A program made the translations under genes and the position numbers. A model generated the notes under the pieces. The model was not told where the DNA came from. It ran no database searches and worked only from the letters and a program-made list of their open reading frames with translations. Below are positions 14,730 to 25,923 of a stretch of 34,965 nt of DNA, one piece after another (position 1 is the first letter of the stretch; each line of letters opens with the position of its first letter). The stretch is from Anaerolineae bacterium (GTDB lineage: Bacteria; Chloroflexota; Anaerolineae; J102): assembly GCA_015485435.1 (NCBI GenBank), contig WFTO01000320.1, positions 1 through 34,965 on the forward strand. Reading direction: 5' to 3'.

Positions 14730-16301
14730 CTAGTCCTTTTCATGTAGCAACGCCCATTCCAAGCCATCGGCAAGAGCCTGCCAACTGGCTTCGATGATAT
14801 TGGCGCTGGCCCCCACGGTTGTCCATCGCTTTTCGCCATCGCTGAAGTCGATGAGCACCCGGGTGGTAGCCGCCGTGGCCATATGCGTATCGAGAATGCG
14901 CACCTTGTAATCGACCAGATGCACGCGTTTGAGTTGTGGGTAAATGCGCTCCAAGGCTTTCCGCAGAGCTTTGTTCAGGGCATTAACCGGCCCATTGCCT
15001 TCAGCGACTTCATGGTGGACCTGATCATCCACCTGCACTTTCACGGTGGCCTCGGCGAAGGTTCCCCGGCCCCGCCGGTGTTCTACATTGGCGGTGAAGT
15101 CGATCAGCTCGAAGGGAGGCTTATAATCAGGCTGTGTCCTACGAAGCAGAAGCTCCACCGAAGCATCGGCCGCTTCAAAGGCAAACCCACGGTGTTCCAA
15201 CTCTTTGATCTGGGCCAATACAGCCTTTTCCTGTTCCCGAGTCACGCCCTCCAGGCCGAATTGCGCCCGCTTCACGGCAATATTATCCTTACCAGACAAA
15301 TCGGAAACCACCACGCGCATGCGGTTGCCCACTAGCTTGGGATCGATGTGTTGATAGCTGTCGGGATTTTTGACCATGGCATTGACGTGAACGCCGCCTT
15401 TGTGGGCGAAGGCGCTGCGGCCTACATAGGGTGCATGATCATCAGGAGCCAGATTAGCCAACTCACTCACAAAGATGGCCACCTCAGTGAGTTTGCGCAG
15501 CTGCTCAGGCCTCACCACCTCCAATCCCATTTTCAAGTTTAAGTTGGCAATGATGGAAATAAGATTGCTGTTGCCGCAGCGTTCGCCATACCCATTCACT
15601 GTGCCCTGGACGTGTACGACGCCTGCCCGAACCGCGGCCAGGGCGTTAGCCACGCCGACTTCCCCATCATTATGAGGATGAATGCCTAAAGGCGTACGGA
15701 TGCCGGCCTCCTGGACTTCATGCACGATGCGCTCAACCTCCCAAGGCATGGTGCCGCCATTGGTGTCACAGAGAACAATCACATCCGCTCCAGCTTTTTC
15801 CGCCGCCTCCAGAGTGCGCAAGGCATATTCGGGGTCCGCCTTGTAACCATCAAAGAAATGCTCGGCGTCATACATGACCTCCTTGCCATTTTCTTTGAGG
15901 TAGGATACGGTGTCGTAGATCATGGTCACATTTTCGTCAAGTGTTGTTCGCAGTACGTCGAATACATGCAACGTCCAGGTCTTGCCGAAAATGGTGACCA
16001 CGTCTGTGCCCGTATCGAGCAACATCTGCACCTGAGGGTCTTGCTCAACCGGCGTGTGCGCTTTACGGGTGGAGCCGAAGGCGGCAATTCGCGCCTGTTG
16101 CAACTGCAATTCGGTCTTTGCCCGCTCGAAGAAATCCATATCCTTGGGGTTCGATCCGGGCCAGCCGCCCTCAATATAATGGACGCCCAATTCGTCCAAT
16201 TTGCGGGCAATACGCAGCTTGTCACCAGCGGAGAAGTTCACGCCTTCTCCCTGAGTGCCGTCGCGAAGGGTGGTGTCATACAATTGAATTGTTGGATTCA
16301 T
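14730..16301 (-). CDS. cimA: (R)-citramalate synthase
   Basis: IQLYDTTLRDGTQGEGVNFSAGDKLRIARKLDELGVHYIEGGWPGSNPKD...HPHNDGEVGVANALAAVRAG; class typical of the long CimA family. Confidence 0.92.
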   Translation of the reverse strand: MNPTIQLYDTTLRDGTQGEGVNFSAGDKLRIARKLDELGVHYIEGGWPGSNPKDMDFFERAKTELQLQQARIAAFGSTRKAHTPVEQDPQVQMLLDTGTDVVTIFGKTWTLHVFDVLRTTLDENVTMIYDTVSYLKENGKEVMYDAEHFFDGYKADPEYALRTLEAAEKAGADVIVLCDTNGGTMPWEVERIVHEVQEAGIRTPLGIHPHNDGEVGVANALAAVRAGVVHVQGTVNGYGERCGNSNLISIIANLNLKMGLEVVRPEQLRKLTEVAIFVSELANLAPDDHAPYVGRSAFAHKGGVHVNAMVKNPDSYQHIDPKLVGNRMRVVVSDLSGKDNIAVKRAQFGLEGVTREQEKAVLAQIKELEHRGFAFEAADASVELLLRRTQPDYKPPFELIDFTANVEHRRGRGTFAEATVKVQVDDQVHHEVAEGNGPVNALNKALRKALERIYPQLKRVHLVDYKVRILDTHMATAATTRVLIDFSDGEKRWTTVGASANIIEASWQALADGLEWALLHEKD

Positions 16302-16360
16302 GGTTGCGGGCCTTATCATCAGAAGAGTTTGAGAAAAATGAAAAACGTCGAATCAACGTA

Positions 16361-17443
16361 TCAATACAAAAAATTTCGAACGATTTCGCCCATCGCTTCC
16401 GTACCGACAATCTCGATGGTCTGATCCGGGGAAGCGACGCCTGCAAGATCGGGCGTTCGATACCCGGCGTCGAGCGATCGCTCGACCGCCCTCTCGATAA
16501 CATCCGCAGCGTCTTTCTCGCCAAAAGAATAACGAAGCATCATCGCTGTCGACAGAATCGTCGCCAGGGGGTTGGCAACACCCTGTCCGGCGATGTCGGG
16601 AGCGGAACCGTGAATGGGTTCATAGAGCCCCACCCGGCCTTCGCCCAGGCTCGCTGAAGGCAACATTCCCATCGAGCCAGCCAGCATGGCCGCCTCGTCG
16701 GTAATGATATCGCCAAACATGTTGCCACTGACAATGACATCGAAATCCGCGGGGCGCCTGATCAGATACATGGTCATGGCGTCCACCAGGACATGTTCCA
16801 ATGTCACGTCGGGGAATTCCGTCTCGACGAGGTGTTGTGTGGTCTGACGCCAAAGGCGAGATGAGGCCAAGACATTGGCTTTATCGACGGATGTGAGCTT
16901 TCCACGTCGCTCCTGGGCGGCTTTGGCCGCGACACGCACCACGCGCTCTACCTCCGGACGGGTGTACAACATCGTGTCATACGCCTCCTCGGACCCCTCT
17001 TCTCGCGGACCGAAGTAGATGCCGCCGGTCAACTCGCGGACCACCAATAAGTCCACGCCCGCCAGCACATCGGGCTTTAGGGAAGACGCGGAAATCAGCT
17101 GAGGATAAATTTTGACTGGTCGCAGATTGGCATACAGGCCTAAACCTTTGCGGATGCCTAACAGTCCTTGTTCTGGACGCACGGCCGCGGTGGGATCACT
17201 CCATTTGGGCCCACCGACCGCGCCCAGCAACACAGCATCCGCCTGTCGACAGGCCTGCAGCGTCTCTTCGGGCAGCGGCTGGCCTGTTTCATCAATGGCA
17301 ATGCCACCGATCAACCTTTCTTCAAATGTAAATTGCAAATCAAAAAGAGGGGATAGAGCCTCCAAAGTTTTTCGCGCTTCGCGAACTACTTCGGGGCCGA
17401 TGCCATCTCCGGGCAAAAGCACAATATGATAATTTTTTGACAT
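16361..17443 (-). CDS. leuB: 3-isopropylmalate dehydrogenase
   Basis: [14 protein letters not shown]...[10 protein letters not shown]...[10 protein letters not shown]...[28 protein letters not shown]. Confidence 0.97.
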
Positions 17444-17639: not shown

Positions 17640-17849
17640 TCAATGATACTCGTTGGGATCAAACGCTCGGTTCAGGGGATCATGTTCATGTTCCCACTCG
17701 CGTTCATGCGGCGCCTCTTGCGCCTCTTCCTCCAGGAAAGCAGGCTGGTAACCCTGATTAATATACCGATTCCAATATTGTTGCTGCTCTTTGACTTCAT
17801 ATTCGCTGCTGGTTTGAAATCGGTTGCTGAGTTGATCTTCGCGTGTCAT
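17640..17849 (-). CDS. Small hypothetical protein (69 aa) between leuD and leuB
   Basis: SD aaaggaga well placed before ATG at 17849; MTREDQLSNRFQTSSEYEVKEQQQYWNRYINQGYQPAFLEEE...; fills the leuD-leuB gap. Confidence 0.6.
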   Translation of the reverse strand: MTREDQLSNRFQTSSEYEVKEQQQYWNRYINQGYQPAFLEEEAQEAPHEREWEHEHDPLNRAFDPNEYH

Positions 17850-17904
17850 GATCAGGTCTCCTTTCGGCACAAATGAAATTCAGAGATGAAGAGAATGGAT
17901 CGTT

Positions 17905-18495
17905 TTATTTTCCCCAGGCCCGTTCATAAGCCTGGATGGCGTCGAGATTGGCAAGCAGATAGCCCAGATCGTCCAGGCCTTGAATCAGGCACTGCTTGCG
18001 GTATGGATCGATCTGAAAGGCGTATTGTTGGCCATCGGGCAGGGTGACCGTCTGACCAGGAAGATCGATGCGAATACGCACGCTGGGATCTTCCTCCACC
18101 ATATCCATCAGCATGTTGACCGTAGACTCTGAGAGGGGGATAGGCAACAAGCCATTTTTCAGAGCATTGTTATAGAAGATGTCTGCGAAATTGGGGGCGA
18201 TGACTGCACGAAATCCGTAATCGGTCAAAGCCCAAACCGCATGCTCTCGACTGGAGCCGCTGCCAAAATTTTTGCCAGAGATAAGAATTTCGGCATGGGC
18301 GTATTGTGGCAAATTCAGCACAAACTCAGGGTTCGGGCGACCATCAGGCAGGTAACGCCAGGCGGCAAAGAGGCCTTTGCCCATGCCATCGCGGGTGACT
18401 GCGGTGAGATATCGCGCTGGAATGATCTGATCGGTATCTACATTTTCCGCCCGTAAAGGCGCTGCCGTTGCGTAAATCGTGGTGAATGGTTTCAT
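17905..18495 (-). CDS. leuD: 3-isopropylmalate dehydratase small subunit
   Basis: ENVDTDQIIPARYL...ILISGKNFGSGSSREHAVWAL. Confidence 0.96.
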   Translation of the reverse strand: MKPFTTIYATAAPLRAENVDTDQIIPARYLTAVTRDGMGKGLFAAWRYLPDGRPNPEFVLNLPQYAHAEILISGKNFGSGSSREHAVWALTDYGFRAVIAPNFADIFYNNALKNGLLPIPLSESTVNMLMDMVEEDPSVRIRIDLPGQTVTLPDGQQYAFQIDPYRKQCLIQGLDDLGYLLANLDAIQAYERAWGK

Positions 18496-18524: not shown

Positions 18525-19934
18525 TTAGAGGATGTCGCGAACGTCGATGATGCGGCCATGGATGGCGGCAGCCGCAGCCATGAGAGGGCTCATGAGGAAG
18601 GTGCGGGCGCCAGGCCCCTGTCGACCGCGAAAGTTCCGATTACTGGTGCTGGCAACGTACTGACCAGGACCAGCTTTGTCATCATTCATGGCCAAACACA
18701 TGCTGCAACCAGCATTACGCCATTCGAAGCCCGCTTCCATGAATATGCGGTCGAGTCCTTCGGCCTCGGCCTGGGCCTTGACATTTTTCGAACCGGGCAC
18801 TACCAGCGCCTGCACACCATCGGCGACCTTCCGGCCTTTCACCACTTGAGCCGCCATCCGCAGATCTTCAATGCGGCTGTTCGTACAAGAGCCAATAAAC
18901 ACGATGTCGATGGGCTGTCCTTCCATGGGCTGTCCTTCCTTCAAGCCCATGTATTCGAGCGCGGCCAATAGATCGCGACGTTGGCCGGGGTCTTCCAACG
19001 CATCCAGAGTGGGCACTCTACCTGTGATAGGAACGCCTTGCCCAGGATTGACGCCGTAAGTCACCATGGGAACGAGCTCATCCGCGGTGATGGTCAATTC
19101 CTTATCAAACATGGCCCCCTCATCCGTGGCCAGCGTTCGCCAATAAGCCACCGCTTTGTCCCATGCATCGCCGCTGGGGGCGTAAGGACGCCCTTTCAAC
19201 CAGGCAAAGGTGGTTTCATCGGGTGCGATCATGCCTGCTCGCGCCCCTCCTTCGATGCTCATATTGCAAATGGTCATGCGCCCCGCCATATCCAGCTTTT
19301 GGATGGCGCTCCCGCGATATTCGAATACATACCCGCGGCCGCCAGCGACGCCATTCTTGGCAATGATGGCGAGGATGATATCCTTGGCGGTTACACCAGG
19401 CCCCAGCTCGCCCTCCACATTAATGGCAAAGGTTTTGGGCTTGTGTTGAAGCAAGGTCTGAGTCGCCAGCACATGCCCGACTTCGCTCGTGCCAATGCCA
19501 AAGGCGAGGGCGCCAAACGCGCCATGGGTGCTGGTGTGACTATCGCCGCATACAATGGTGCTACCCGGATGGGTAATGCCCATCTCTGGTCCAACCACGT
19601 GGACGATCCCCTGTGTAGGGCCTTCGATATCCCAGAGGGTCACGCCGAACTCTTCGCAGTTTCGGCGGAGGGTGTCGACTTGAAGACGCGCATCTTTTGG
19701 CCATTTTTCTGGGGGTTCAGGCCGGGTGGGGATGGCGTGATCCATGGTGGCAAAGGTGCGATCGGGACGTCGCACCCGCAAGCCACGCTCTCGCAGCATA
19801 TTAAATGCCTGGGGCGAGGTCACCTCGTGAATAAGGTGGGCGTCAATGTAAAGGATGGCGGGAGCGCCTTCATCTTGTTTGACGACGTGCGCTTCCCAAA
19901 CTTTTTCGAAAAGGGTTTTGGGCGTTGATGTCAT
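18525..19934 (-). CDS. leuC: 3-isopropylmalate dehydratase large subunit
   Basis: [12 protein letters not shown]...[17 protein letters not shown]...[34 protein letters not shown]...[13 protein letters not shown]; start at MTSTPKTLF. Confidence 0.97.
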
Positions 19935-20013
19935 GATGTGTTGAGACGATGAATGATTGTTTTGTGTGGGATAGGATGGAATGGGATCAATACAGACGAT
20001 CGGTGGCGATGTC

Positions 20014-21696
20014 TCAAGCCAGGGTCGTCTCAGGCTGCGAATCGGGTGCATCGCTGATGTGAATGGCGGCGCTTTCCTCATCGCCTGCCGCGATCAGCTT
20101 GTTTAGGGCCTGCATGTATGCTTTGGCGCTGGCGACGACAATATCGGTGTCTACGCCCCGCCCTGAGAAAAGCCGGCGACGAGGTCGTCCCTGGGGGGTG
20201 AATTTGTAGCCGCGACTATCGGGCGCCTCGATGCGGATGGTCACATCACCGTTGGCATCCATACCTTCGGTGATCGCCTGCACCAGATATTCCACCAACC
20301 GATTGGGTACGCCGACAATGCGGTTAATGCCCTGGTACATCGCATCGACAGGCCCAGCGCCAAAGCCGGCGTCGGTGACTTCTTCGCCGGTTTCTAGATT
20401 GCGCAGGGTCACCACCGCCGTAGGAATGACGTTGGTGCCGGTTTGGACCTGCACATTCACAAGCTCCCAAACCTCTCGGGGTTGGTACACCTCATCGGCT
20501 ACCAGCGCCTCTATATCCGCATCGGAGACGGTTTTCTTCTTATCCGCCAGTTCTTTGAAACGGCGAAAAGCGCGATTGAGCTCTTCATCGTCCAGACGAT
20601 ACCCCATATCCTCCAGCCGTTTACGAAACGCATGACGCCCCGAATGTTTTCCCAATACGAGACGGCTATGACTCAGTCCGATCAGGGAAGCGTCCATGAT
20701 TTCGTAGGTGCGCTTATGTTTCAACATGCCATCCTGATGGATGCCCGCTTCATGGGCGAAGGCATTTGCGCCTACTATGGCCTTGTTCGGCTGGATCAAC
20801 ATGCCCGTGTAGCGGCTCACCATGTCCGATGTGCGGTGGATCTCCTGGGTAATGATGTTGGTGTCCACCTCGTAGACCTGTTGACGTACATACAAGGCCA
20901 TGACCACTTCTTCCAGACTGGTATTTCCTGCGCGTTCGCCAATGCCATTCACGGTAACTTCCACCTGACGAGCGCCAGCCTGAATCCCAGCCAGGGCGTT
21001 GGCGGTGGCCAGGCCCAGATCATTGTGGGTGTGGACGGAGATGATCACGTCCTTGGCGCCGGGCGTGTGCTCGCGGATGTCGGCGATGAGTTTGCCGAAC
21101 TCCTCGGGCGTGGTGTAGCCCACGGTGTCGGGGATGTTGATGGTGGTGGCGCCGGCTTCGATGGCCGCCTGCAACACCCGATACAAGAACTCGGGATCGC
21201 TACGGCCCGCGTCCTCGGGACTGAATTCAACGTCATCGGTGTATTGTTTGGCGTAAGCGACCATCTCACGCACCCGGGCCACGACCTCGTCGGGTGACAT
21301 GCGCAATTTGTATTTCATGTGCACCGGAGATGTGGCCAAAAAGGTGTGGATGCGTGGACGCTTGGCTGGCTGCACAGCCTCCCAGGCCTTATCGATGTCG
21401 CTCTTGTTGGCCCGGGCCAGCCCACAGATCACGGGCGGTTCCGCGGGTTGTCCAAATTTGTCGATGCGCGGCTCGCGTCCGACCGTCTCTGCGATGCGCT
21501 TCACCGCGGCGAGATCGCCGGGCGAAGCCGCTGGAAAGCCCGCCTCGATGATGTCAACGCCCAGACGCGCCAGCTGCTTGGCGATGTCAAGCTTTTCCTC
21601 TGCATTCAACGTGGCGCCAGGGGATTGCTCGCCATCGCGTAAAGTGGTGTCGAAAATCAGGACCACGTCTCGATCATGAATAGGAGGTTCGCTCAT
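20014..21696 (-). CDS. leuA: 2-isopropylmalate synthase
   Basis: [42 protein letters not shown]...[37 protein letters not shown]. Confidence 0.97.
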
Positions 21697-21815: not shown

Positions 21816-22820
21816 TCAATCAATCTCAACAGGATTGAGCCAAGGCATCATGCGGCGGAGCTGACGCCCCACCTTTTCAATCAGGTGATTACGCTCCTCT
21901 CGGCGACGGGCATTGAAGTTGGGGCGGCCTTTCGCGTTCTCCTCGATCCATTCTTCGGCATACGCCCCCGATTGAATGTCTGCCAGAATCTTCTTCATGG
22001 CCTCTCGCGACTGTTCGTTGATGACTTTTCGACCGGCATGGTAATCGCCGTGCTCAGCGGTGTCGCTGACGCTGTAGCGCATATAAGCCAATCCGCCTTG
22101 ATAGAAGAGGTCCACGATCAGTTTCATTTCGTGCATGGTCTCGAAATAGGCTACTTCAGGTTGGTAGCCCGCTTCGACCAGGGTTTCAAACCCCGCTTTG
22201 ATGAGCTCGCTGACGCCGCCGCAGAGCACAGCCTGCTCGCCAAAGAGGTCTGTTTCCGTTTCTTCGGCAAAGGTGGTCACCAGAGCCCCTGCCCGGGTGC
22301 CCCCGATGGCCTTGGCGTATGCCAATACATCCTCCCAGGCATGACCGGTGGCGTCCTGATAGACGGCGACAAGAACTGGCGTACCCACGCCTTCCACGAA
22401 TAGCTCGCGCACGCGATGGCCTGGGGCCTTGGGCGCAACCATGCTGACGTCCACCTCCTTAGGAGGCACAATCTGGCCGAAACGGATATTGAAGCCATGC
22501 CCGAACATTAACGTATTCCCAGGTTCAAGATGGGGCTCGATGGCCTCTTTGTAAACCTGGGCCTGCTTTGTATCAGGAATTAAGACCATGATCATGTCGG
22601 CTTCCTGACAGGCCTGAGTGGTCGGGACCACCCGCAGACCCTCGGCTTCCGCCTTCTCCCAGGAAGGAGAACCTTCATACAGCCCAACGCGTACATCCAT
22701 CCCACTATCTCGCAAGCTGAGAGCGTGGGCGTGGCCCTGGCTGCCATAGCCGAGCACAGCGATCTTACGTCCTTCAAGATGAGAGAGGTCAGCGTCTTTG
22801 TCGTAGTAGATGGTTGCCAT
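21816..22820 (-). CDS. ilvC: Ketol-acid reductoisomerase (class I)
   Basis: [21 protein letters not shown]...[30 protein letters not shown]...[24 protein letters not shown]. Confidence 0.98.
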
Positions 22821-22892: not shown

Positions 22893-23441
22893 TCAAAGCG
22901 CGATGCGACGAGCGTGCTTGCCGTTGCCGTTGGCGCCGTTGGCGCGACCTCGCGTCATGGCGATGGGGCCGGTGCGCACCATCTCAGTGACGGGAAAGTT
23001 GGAAAGCAGCTCAATGAGGCTATCCAATCGATCCTGATCACCGACAGCCTGAACGACCAGCGAATCGAGGCTGACATCAATGATGCTGGCTCGATAAATA
23101 TCGACCAGTTGCATGACTTCAGGCCTGGTTTGGGCATTGACCTTAACGCGAATAAGGGCCATTTCACGCCGGACGGCTGGCTTGCCGGTGACGTTTTCAA
23201 CCTTCAATACGTTGATCTGCTTGTCTAATTGCTTGATGGCTTGTTCGACCATCTGGTCATCGCCGACCACGGTAAAGGTCAGACGGCTGACGCCTGGGCG
23301 TTCGCTATGTCCCACAGCCAGACTTTCGATGTTGAAATTTCGGCGGCGGAAGAGGCTCAGCACCCGACTGAGCACTCCGGGTTTATCCTCAAGCCAGGCG
23401 ATCACGGTATGCTTGTTAAATGTGCTTGGATCGTGGGTCAT
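22893..23441 (-). CDS. ilvN: Acetolactate synthase small (regulatory) subunit
   Basis: ACT domain: [46 protein letters not shown]. Confidence 0.95.
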
Positions 23442-23521: not shown

Positions 23522-25231
23522 TTACCAGGCAGGTTGCAACCCGCTCGGTCCTTGCACGATCCGTCGTCGTAGCAGATTGTCGATAGCCTCACCGGGCGCG
23601 ACCATGGGATAGACGTTGACTTCTTCTTTGACCTGGAAGTCAATGAGATAGGGGCCTTCATGGCTGTTCGCCTCTTCCAACGCGGCGACGACCTCTTCTT
23701 TAGTGGTCACTCGGCGGGCGGGAATGCCATAGGCCTGGGCCAAAAGCATGTAATCAGGACTTTGAATCGGGGTGCCAGCATAATTCTTTTCGTAGAAGAG
23801 CTCCTGCCACTGGCGAACCATGCCCAAAAAACCGTTGTTGATGATCGCTATTTTGACCGGCACACGCTCCTGCATGATCACTCCCAGCTCTTGTAGGGTC
23901 ATCTGAAAACCACCATCGCCCACCACTGCCCAGACGGTTTCATCAGGCGAGGCATAGTGGGCGCCGATAGCTGCAGGCAATGCATATCCCATGGTGCCCA
24001 GACCGCCGCTGGTCAATAGCTGTCGGGGTTTGTCATGCAGAAAATATTGGGCCTCCCACATCTGATGTTGCCCCACGTCTGTCACAATGATAGCGTCGCC
24101 CTGGGTGACATGCCATAATTGCCTCATGACGTATGGCGGAATCAGTTCATCGACTTCTGCGTTCAGGATGTCCAATTCTTGGGACTCATGGTTCCATTCC
24201 TCGATTTTGGCCATCCAGTTCTGATGGCGTGCGGGGTTGACCTTCCCCAACAGCGCTTGCAGAGCCTCTTTAGCGTCCGCGAGAATTGCTACGTCCACGG
24301 GAACATTTTTGTTGATCTCAGCAGGATCGAATTCGATATGGATGATCTTGGCGTTGGGAGCAAAGGCGTCCAGATCGCCGGTCACGCGGTCATCAAAACG
24401 CATGCCCACTGCGATGAGGACATCGCTTTCCTGGATGGCTTTATTGGCCCGCGCTTCGCCATGCATTCCACACATGCCCAGGCTGAGAGGATGGGTTTCG
24501 GGGATATCCCCCAGCCCCAACAGGGTCATCGCCACCGGAATGTGTGCTTTTTCAGCCAGTTGCCGCAGTTCATTTTCGGCATGGGCCATCTGCACGCCAT
24601 GTCCGGCAATGATTACTGGGCGATGAGATTGATTGATGAGTTCCGCCGCGGCCTCGACCGCATCCATGTCAAGGCCGGTGTAGGGCCGATAGCCGGGAAG
24701 GTCTAATTTCTCCGGGAACACAAACTCGGTCTCATCGTTGAGTACATCTTTACAGATGTCCACTAGCACAGGTCCGGGACGACCTGTACGGGCGATATAG
24801 AACGCTTCTCTCAAGATGCGAGCGAGATCCTGGATGTTTGTAACCAGATAATTGTGCTTGGTGACAGCCTGGGTGACGCCAGTGACATCGGTTTCCTGAA
24901 AAGCGTCATTGCCTAGCAATGTGGTGGGGACCTGTCCGGTAATGGCGACAATCGGAACCGAATCCATCATGGCTGTAGCCAGGGCGGTGACCAGATTGGT
25001 CGCGGCCGGGCCAGAGGTCACCGTAACGACGCCCACATCGCCTGAGACGCGAGCATAACCATCGGCCATGTGACCTGCGCCTTGCTCGTGTCGGGCAAGG
25101 ATGTGGCGGACGGGGTAAGCGGGCATGGCGTCGTAGACGGGCAGAATGGCACCGCCAGGGTGTCCGAATACGGTGCTGACGCCCTCGCGGGTCAACACTT
25201 CCCAAACGATCTGTGCGCCTGTTCGCTTCAT
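23522..25231 (-). CDS. ilvB: Acetolactate synthase large (catalytic) subunit
   Basis: [36 protein letters not shown]...[31 protein letters not shown]...ThDP motif [14 protein letters not shown] aggagaag before ATG 25231. Confidence 0.97.
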
Positions 25232-25306
25232 GTTCTTCTCCTGATGTGGAAGAGATGGCTGCCGTTTGTGCGGAAACACATTGGCATGTGGGATAAAAGA
25301 AAGAAG

Positions 25307-25343
25307 GGCCTTCAATATCCCGCTGTGCGGTCAATCGAAGGCC
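25307..25343 (-). promoter_or_regulatory. Second strong hairpin in the ilvB leader
   Basis: Minus strand GGCCTTCGAT-TGA-CCGC-ACA-GCGG-GAT-ATTGAAGGCC followed by pyrimidine-rich CTTCTTTCTTTT. Confidence 0.5.
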
Positions 25344-25460
25344 TCATTGCCTGAACGAGTTGGTTGGGTTGCATCCATCGTCGTAATTGATGGTTTGGCG
25401 AAAACCATTTGATGCCATGATTCTGAAATACATTCATGATGTGCAGGGTTTCAATGGTCA

Positions 25461-25496
25461 AACAAAAAAGCCCTCTCCCGGTTGGAAGAGGGCTTT
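25461..25496 (-). terminator. Attenuator terminator upstream of ilvB
   Basis: Minus strand AAAGCCCTCT-TCCAACCGGG-AGAGGGCTTTTTTG: 10-bp perfect stem plus U-tract. Confidence 0.88.
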
Positions 25497-25518
25497 GCTA
25501 TCACGGTATGGATGCTTA

Positions 25519-25635
25519 TCAACATCTTCGTCGGGCATCCGCCTCCTGTCCAACCGGGATCGGCTCCTGGCCGCTAATAAGGGCGAGGAGCACAATAATA
25601 ATAACGAGGACGAGGAAGCTAATGCCGAACAACAT
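25519..25635 (-). CDS. BCAA-rich leader peptide of the ilv-leu operon (38 aa)
   Basis: MLFGISFLVLVIIIVLLALISGQEPIPVGQEADARRRC; 12 of 13 residues in LVLVIIIVLLALI are Leu/Ile/Val; lies between promoter and terminator. Confidence 0.82.
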   Translation of the reverse strand: MLFGISFLVLVIIIVLLALISGQEPIPVGQEADARRRC

Positions 25636-25690
25636 TCGATTCGTGGTTGATAAAAGGGTCTTGAACGTGAATATCCTTAAGTTGGGGGTG

Positions 25691-25719
25691 ATTATACTCA
25701 GGTCGAAATCATTTGTCAA
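25691..25719 (-). promoter_or_regulatory. Consensus sigma70-type promoter of the ilv-leu operon
   Basis: Minus strand TTGACA AATGATTTCGACCTGAG TATAAT (exact consensus hexamers, 17-nt spacer). Confidence 0.85.
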
Positions 25720-25923
25720 ATCATACTGGCGAGGGAAGTCTGCCCGGACAGCGTTCTAGAAAGATGGCCATCCGCTCAACCTATCAGGTCATTTCATGTG
25801 ATTTTCCACAGTCAATCCACGTAAAAACGCCCGTTGGCCCGTGTATGCGTCCGCAATCACAAACCGACGGCCAAACGCGTTGGATTATCGATGCTAAAAA
25901 ATCCAATCAGGAACGTTAGGATT

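Follow-up and report, generated by a model that had tools for sequence, protein, structure and literature searches.

The window analysed here, the whole 34,965-nt stretch of contig WFTO01000320.1 from an Anaerolineae bacterium (Chloroflexota), carries on its minus strand an operon, ilvBNC-leuACDB-cimA, which according to family-library matches makes the very branched-chain amino acids (BCAA; Leu, Ile, and Val) that the leader described below would sense. It comprises ilvB (acetolactate synthase large subunit, 23522..25231, TIGR00118, E 1e-228), ilvN (acetolactate synthase small subunit, 22893..23441, TIGR00119), ilvC (ketol-acid reductoisomerase, 21816..22820, NF004017), leuA (2-isopropylmalate synthase, 20014..21696, TIGR00973), leuC (18525..20081, TIGR00170), leuD (17905..18495, TIGR00171), leuB (16361..17443, TIGR00169), and cimA (citramalate synthase, 14730..16319, TIGR00977, E 4e-226). 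A sequence-only reading of this DNA had counted nine genes in the cluster; eight are recognisable, and the ninth could only be a small, unassigned acidic ORF of 76 aa on the same strand between leuD and leuB (17640-17870). The longest ilvB ORF begins with TTG at 25315, and homologues together with an upstream AGGAG place the true start probably at ATG 25231. The family match of leuC runs from residue 54, and the true start of this gene is probably at about residue 50 of its ORF. Upstream of the leader lies hisA, in divergent orientation.

Before ilvB, also on the minus strand, we found a sigma-70-type promoter, TTGACA-N17-TATAAT, at 25691..25719 (TTGACA at 25719-25714, a 17-nt spacer, and TATAAT at 25696-25691), and a leader ORF of 38 codons, MLFGISFLVLVIIIVLLALISGQEPIPVGQEADARRRC, at 25519..25635 (ATG at 25635, TGA ending at 25519). 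The control codons of this ORF are leader codons 8-20, 12 of the 13 specifying Leu, Ile, or Val, including ATT ATT ATT at 25602-25594. Neither element is expected by chance: exact TTGACA-N16..18-TATAAT occurs once in the window versus never in 300 Markov copies, and ATG ORFs of 20-60 aa with at least 11 of 13 residues being Ile, Leu, or Val occur once in the window and are absent from 60 first-order Markov copies. TTGACA with TATAAT or TATACT stands at the same position in all members of the host family with upstream sequence, and the leader ATG has no clear Shine-Dalgarno sequence in this family.

Within the ORF, a pause-type hairpin at 25563..25591 (minus strand; GCTCCT at 25591-25586 with AGGAGC at 25568-25563) pairs Leu-Leu codons with Gln/Lys-Glu codons. 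Also inside the ORF (codons ...P V G Q E) is strand 2, the 5' half of the antiterminator, assigned by covariation to 25541..25559 on the minus strand; its TCCCGGTTGGA (25559-25549) is the exact 11-nt reverse complement of TCCAACCGGGA (25486-25476). The latter belongs to strand 3 (25476..25492, minus strand), which sequence, folds, and covariation identify both as the 5' arm and loop of the terminator and as the 3' half of the antiterminator. The intrinsic terminator (3:4) with its U tract occupies 25461..25496 on the minus strand by sequence and RNA fold, the stem spanning 25495-25468 and being followed by a T run, and it lies downstream of the promoter and ahead of the first structural gene, as it does in homologues. 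The RNA fold of the leader has z = -5.0. The sequence-only reading had proposed the promoter, the leader ORF with its BCAA run, the pause hairpin, and the 11-nt complementarity, and had remarked on the lack of a clear Shine-Dalgarno sequence; all of these are as it described. The terminator, too, lies where it had been placed, with 13 bp in the RNA fold. Three features were absent from that reading: the position of strand 2 inside the leader ORF, a protector (1:2), and a second conserved hairpin before ilvB.

Mutually exclusive pairings and their covariation

In folds of transcripts ending before strand 3, strand 2 pairs with the early leader ORF in 39 of 39 homologues and encloses the pause hairpin, the mean pairing probability of the strand 2 region being 0.69. 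Minimum free energy (MFE) folds of the window and the 39 homologues define strand 1, the 5' half of this protector (anti-antiterminator), as 25605..25626 on the minus strand (leader codons 4-11), and the protector predicted for the window pairs 25626-25605 with 25556-25534, so that the pause hairpin is nested in its stem. The pause hairpin alone was rejected as protector because it does not overlap strand 2; the longer stem fits instead. The predicted protector completes the classical set of 1:2, 2:3, and 3:4 pairings.

The complementarity of strands 2 and 3 is kept in 39 homologues despite many sequence forms, among them CCGGTTGGAAGG/CCTTCCAACCGG, CCGTTTGGAAGG/CCTTCCAAACGG, CCAGTTGGAAGG/CCTTCCAACTGG, CGCGTTGGGAGG/CCTCCCAACGCG, CCCGTTGGGC/GCCCAACGGG, and TTTCGTTTAGGA/TCCTAAACGGAG, with two-sided compensatory changes from CCGG-TTGG/CCAA-CCGG to CGCG, CCCG, CCAG, and CCGT. 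The complement of strand 2 sits in the terminator loop in homologues as well. Over 39 sequences, the antiterminator forms 412 Watson-Crick pairs versus at most 376 in 5000 swaps between sequences (P = 0.0004 in the host family alone); such swaps ignore relatedness, whereas shifting the partners by 1-3 columns preserves it and lowers pairing from 89% to 32-60%. For some members outside the family, complementarity itself served to anchor the core positions, and the weight of the evidence therefore falls on the flanking ones. Two-sided changes number 10 at pair 43-126, 6 at pair 44-125, and 17 at pair 49-120. In the two-helix structure, 89% of cells are paired, with a covariation score of 0.265 versus 0.133 in shuffles (0/500). 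The pause hairpin covaries too (CTTCTG/CAGAAG, CTCCTT/AAGGAG, and CTTTTG/CAAGAG), Leu-Leu codons changing together with Gln/Lys-Glu/Lys codons. The elements of the leader are conserved and show compensatory changes, and the antiterminator, supported by this covariation, is exclusive of the terminator.

Proposed attenuation mechanism and alternative explanations

We regard it as very probable that the leader is a ribosome-mediated attenuator that senses the charging of branched-chain tRNAs and controls the ilvBNC-leuACDB-cimA operon. This interpretation had been advanced from the sequence alone and is supported by relatives across many families, which have a BCAA-rich ORF and compensatory changes. 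Transcription and translation of the leader, stalling, and the direction of regulation are what we infer, as follows. With an ample supply of Leu, Ile, and Val, the ribosome would pass the control codons onto strand 2, inside the ORF; with strand 2 occupied, no antiterminator would form, the 3:4 hairpin would fold, and RNA polymerase would terminate at about 25461. If even one of these amino acids runs low, the ribosome would stall within the L-V-L-V-I-I-I-V-L-L run, covering strand 1 and breaking the 1:2 protector stem, and the freed strand 2 would pair with strand 3 (the terminator 5' arm and loop), allowing transcription to continue. The role of the nested LL/QE hairpin is probably to make RNA polymerase pause until the ribosome has caught up.

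Simulations of the ribosome footprint, moved codon by codon along 20 homologues, support this logic and, being equilibrium folds of truncated RNAs, are not proof of it. With the ribosome on strand 2, antiterminator pairing is abolished; with the ribosome on the BCAA run, its probability is near 1 in nearly all of the 20, including eight in which the ribosome-free protector wins (L004, L010, L035, L038, L046, L064, L067, and L078), and in one, L039, the modelled antiterminator is never dominant. In the window leader, 2:3 beats 1:2 at ribosome-free equilibrium before strand 4 exists (P 0.96), as it does in several relatives, and default termination in the window leader must therefore rest on kinetics or on a later win of the terminator. 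The antiterminator is the MFE state without strand 4, and once strand 4 exists the terminator usually wins, which makes equilibrium folds of the full leader uninformative about stalling. The position of the stop codon varies. In the host family it lies 5-10 codons beyond strand 2, so that a ribosome parked there leaves strand 2 not directly covered. In L043, L046, L063, L074, L162, and L163, the ORF ends just before strand 2, so that a ribosome halted at its stop codon would sit over that strand; in most homologues strand 2 appears to be translated.

Alternatively, the leader could encode a functional peptide, either a small membrane protein or an arrest peptide, with GQEPxPVGR selected as protein. 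Its motif L-I-x-G-Q-E-P-x-P-V-G is nearly invariant in the host family and it is hydrophobic like a membrane segment, but we consider this explanation very unlikely. GGC CAG GAG is free of any synonymous change in 17 of 17 host-family sequences, pointing to selection on nucleotides. Moreover, between families QE, KE, and QK change with the LL codons, and PVG, ARVG, and SVR with the terminator loop, while RNA pairing persists where the ORF ends before strand 2 (L043, L046, L063, and L074). Stalling by a conserved nascent peptide was ruled out by the codon-level conservation and by residues changing with their RNA partners. Since strand 2 lies inside the ORF, the odd motif GQEPxPVG would be imposed by RNA pairing, and the comparison between families leads us to read the peptide motif best as a by-product of that pairing.

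Control of the operon by a metabolite riboswitch or T-box, with the short ORF incidental, has next to no likelihood. The same genome has seven matches to the T-box covariance model (RF00230), six of them over the cut-off, and four of the five checked precede genes that we take, from their sequence, to be thrS, pheS, serS, and valS (L217, L219, L220, and L221), so tRNA-sensing leaders are in use in this genome; but none of the seven is at the ilv operon or elsewhere on this contig, the window and six homologous loci gave no Rfam match at the gathering threshold, and the BCAA-run ORF is conserved in homologues. Among the listed matches to the Rfam leader families (Leu, Thr, His, Trp, and Phe) at E up to 10, scores were only 17-21 bits versus thresholds of 55. 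The genome appears to use two kinds of sensor for tRNA charging, T-boxes for the synthetases and a leader peptide for BCAA biosynthesis. Finally, intrinsic terminators are common in intergenic regions, but a constitutive insulator beside a chance hydrophobic ORF can practically be dismissed, as this terminator lies between the operon's own promoter and first gene, has no upstream gene to serve since hisA is divergent, and has a loop covarying with strand 2, next to an ORF that is conserved.

A second conserved element before ilvB

Downstream of the attenuator, conservation marks a candidate element at 25295..25353 (minus strand), a second terminator-like hairpin (GGCAANGNNGCC) with a T run, whose 5' arm is overlapped in the window by a small hairpin, AGGC-AATG-AG-GCCT. 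The arrangement, RGGC-AANG-NN-GCCY with small deviations and then a terminator-like hairpin, is present in 17 of 17 family loci, in 8 of other families, and in L207, a locus that played no part in its definition (the window, L002-L017, L037, L038, L045, L064, L066, L069, L070, L078, and L207), and it is conserved where the surrounding spacer is not. A strict pattern requiring the stem matched upstream in 4 of 30 ilvB loci, with no match on the reverse strand and none in 45 kb of gene bodies; the window copy escaped it only because the ilvB ORF as called is too long and runs into that copy. The small hairpin is the one favoured by RNAalifold, though on an alignment whose 3' side is poor. It is conceivable, though we advance it with some doubt, that two switches act in series on the ilv operon, the BCAA attenuator and, some 90-420 nt beyond strand 2 in the downstream direction, another attenuator, of an undescribed kind, in which the small hairpin with its invariant loop residues would compete with the second terminator in response to a protein or metabolite. 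The same hairpin-terminator layout is seen in L178 and L180 (family f21), where a small hairpin, GAGGC-CNNGAC-GCCTC, is followed by a terminator just before a LysE-type-exporter-like gene.

Distribution in Chloroflexota and relation to known attenuators

As a 301-nt DNA query, the leader was found in 17 of 61 relatives, corresponding to 17 of the 20 host-family genomes and none from other families. Homologous BCAA-rich leader ORFs occur in these 17 host-family genomes and in other families. A leader peptide profile matched 57 of 397 genomes of the class at E 0.1, true and false matches mixed; inspection of the weaker ones confirmed genuine leaders in additional families, frequently upstream of ilvB, and set aside L062, L065, L068, L071, L072, L075-L077, and L079-L081 as false or unsupported. 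The covariance model R1 matched 54 of 399 genomes of the phylum at E 0.01, and nearly all of the 27 new loci examined combine a terminator with a BCAA-run ORF and a pair of complementary strands. In a sample of 30 ilvB loci from the class, drawn without regard to the leader, 11 have an R1 match (E < 1e-3) upstream on the same strand. The gene after the leader is ilvB by tblastn, and in other genomes it is what we presume, from translations and without a family-library run, to be ilvD or ilvE.

Some loci depart from this layout. L203 (G023) has two complete BCAA leader attenuators in tandem, at 2404-2307 and 2135-2034 on the minus strand, upstream of one ilvB, and a 2.8-kb contig (L073/L043, G380 contig 487) bears two BCAA leaders, the first before an ilvE-like gene. 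In L034 and L037 (family f32), a typical BCAA leader attenuator has a short uncharacterised ORF directly downstream and no BCAA gene there.

A genome-wide pattern scan gave 55 matches. Where a record combines the motif with a BCAA leader and bears a title, it is from Chloroflexota (Anaerolineae, Caldilineales, and Ardenticatena), and the matches in other phyla are taken as chance, judged from taxonomy and the expected number rather than one by one. GGCAAYGNNGCC was rejected as a recurrent genomic regulatory element: it has 15 matches versus 3 for a reversed control, and those outside the ilv leader look coding. Covariation across many lineages indicates that the attenuator is real, ancient, and widespread in Chloroflexota.

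The enterobacterial ilvGMEDA, ilvBN, and leuABCD operons are controlled by leader-peptide attenuators, to which the sequence-only reading had likened the architecture found here; the likeness holds for the logic and fails for descent. Shared are the BCAA codon run in a short ORF, the exclusive protector, antiterminator, and terminator hairpins, and the BCAA operon downstream. No sequence relation to the enterobacterial attenuators can be detected, nor does any Rfam leader family match at the gathering score. Unlike them, the Chloroflexota leader has strand 2 inside the ORF in most homologues and the pause hairpin nested in the protector, and in the window a single attenuator serves the combined ilv-leu-cimA operon. 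T-box leaders also sense tRNA charging, but they bind uncharged tRNA directly, without a leader ORF.

Three studies describe BCAA leader peptides before actinobacterial ilvB (PMC1262725, PMC10272879, PMC11857589), and the Ile/Val/Leu-rich peptide preceding ilvBNC in Corynebacterium and other actinobacteria is shared with the leader described here. In C. glutamicum, according to PMC11857589, a terminator, antiterminator, and anti-antiterminator of ilvBNC were proposed and tested by mutation; the leader peptide given there has 15 aa, MTIIRLVVVTARRLP, and no sequence relation to the Chloroflexota leader. PMC1262725 reports the exact mode of actinobacterial ilvB leaders as unclear. A 2013 survey including five Chloroflexi genomes regards amino-acid attenuators as chiefly gamma-proteobacterial and lists T-boxes for Chloroflexi (PMC3766115), and comparative analysis there suggested a gamma-proteobacterial origin of leader-peptide attenuation with few transfers (PMC3766115). 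Our literature search returned no earlier description of this leader in Chloroflexota, though a prior mention may exist.

A ready covariance model for the leader now exists. The leader also illustrates that an RNA switch, when it lies in a coding region, can leave its mark on the peptide as a conserved motif that might be misread as the sign of a functional microprotein. Most known cases of leader-peptide attenuation come from Proteobacteria and Actinobacteria. The finding of a covarying family in many Chloroflexota families, in genomes that are also able to regulate synthetase genes by T-boxes, suggests that the strategy has deep roots in a distant phylum.
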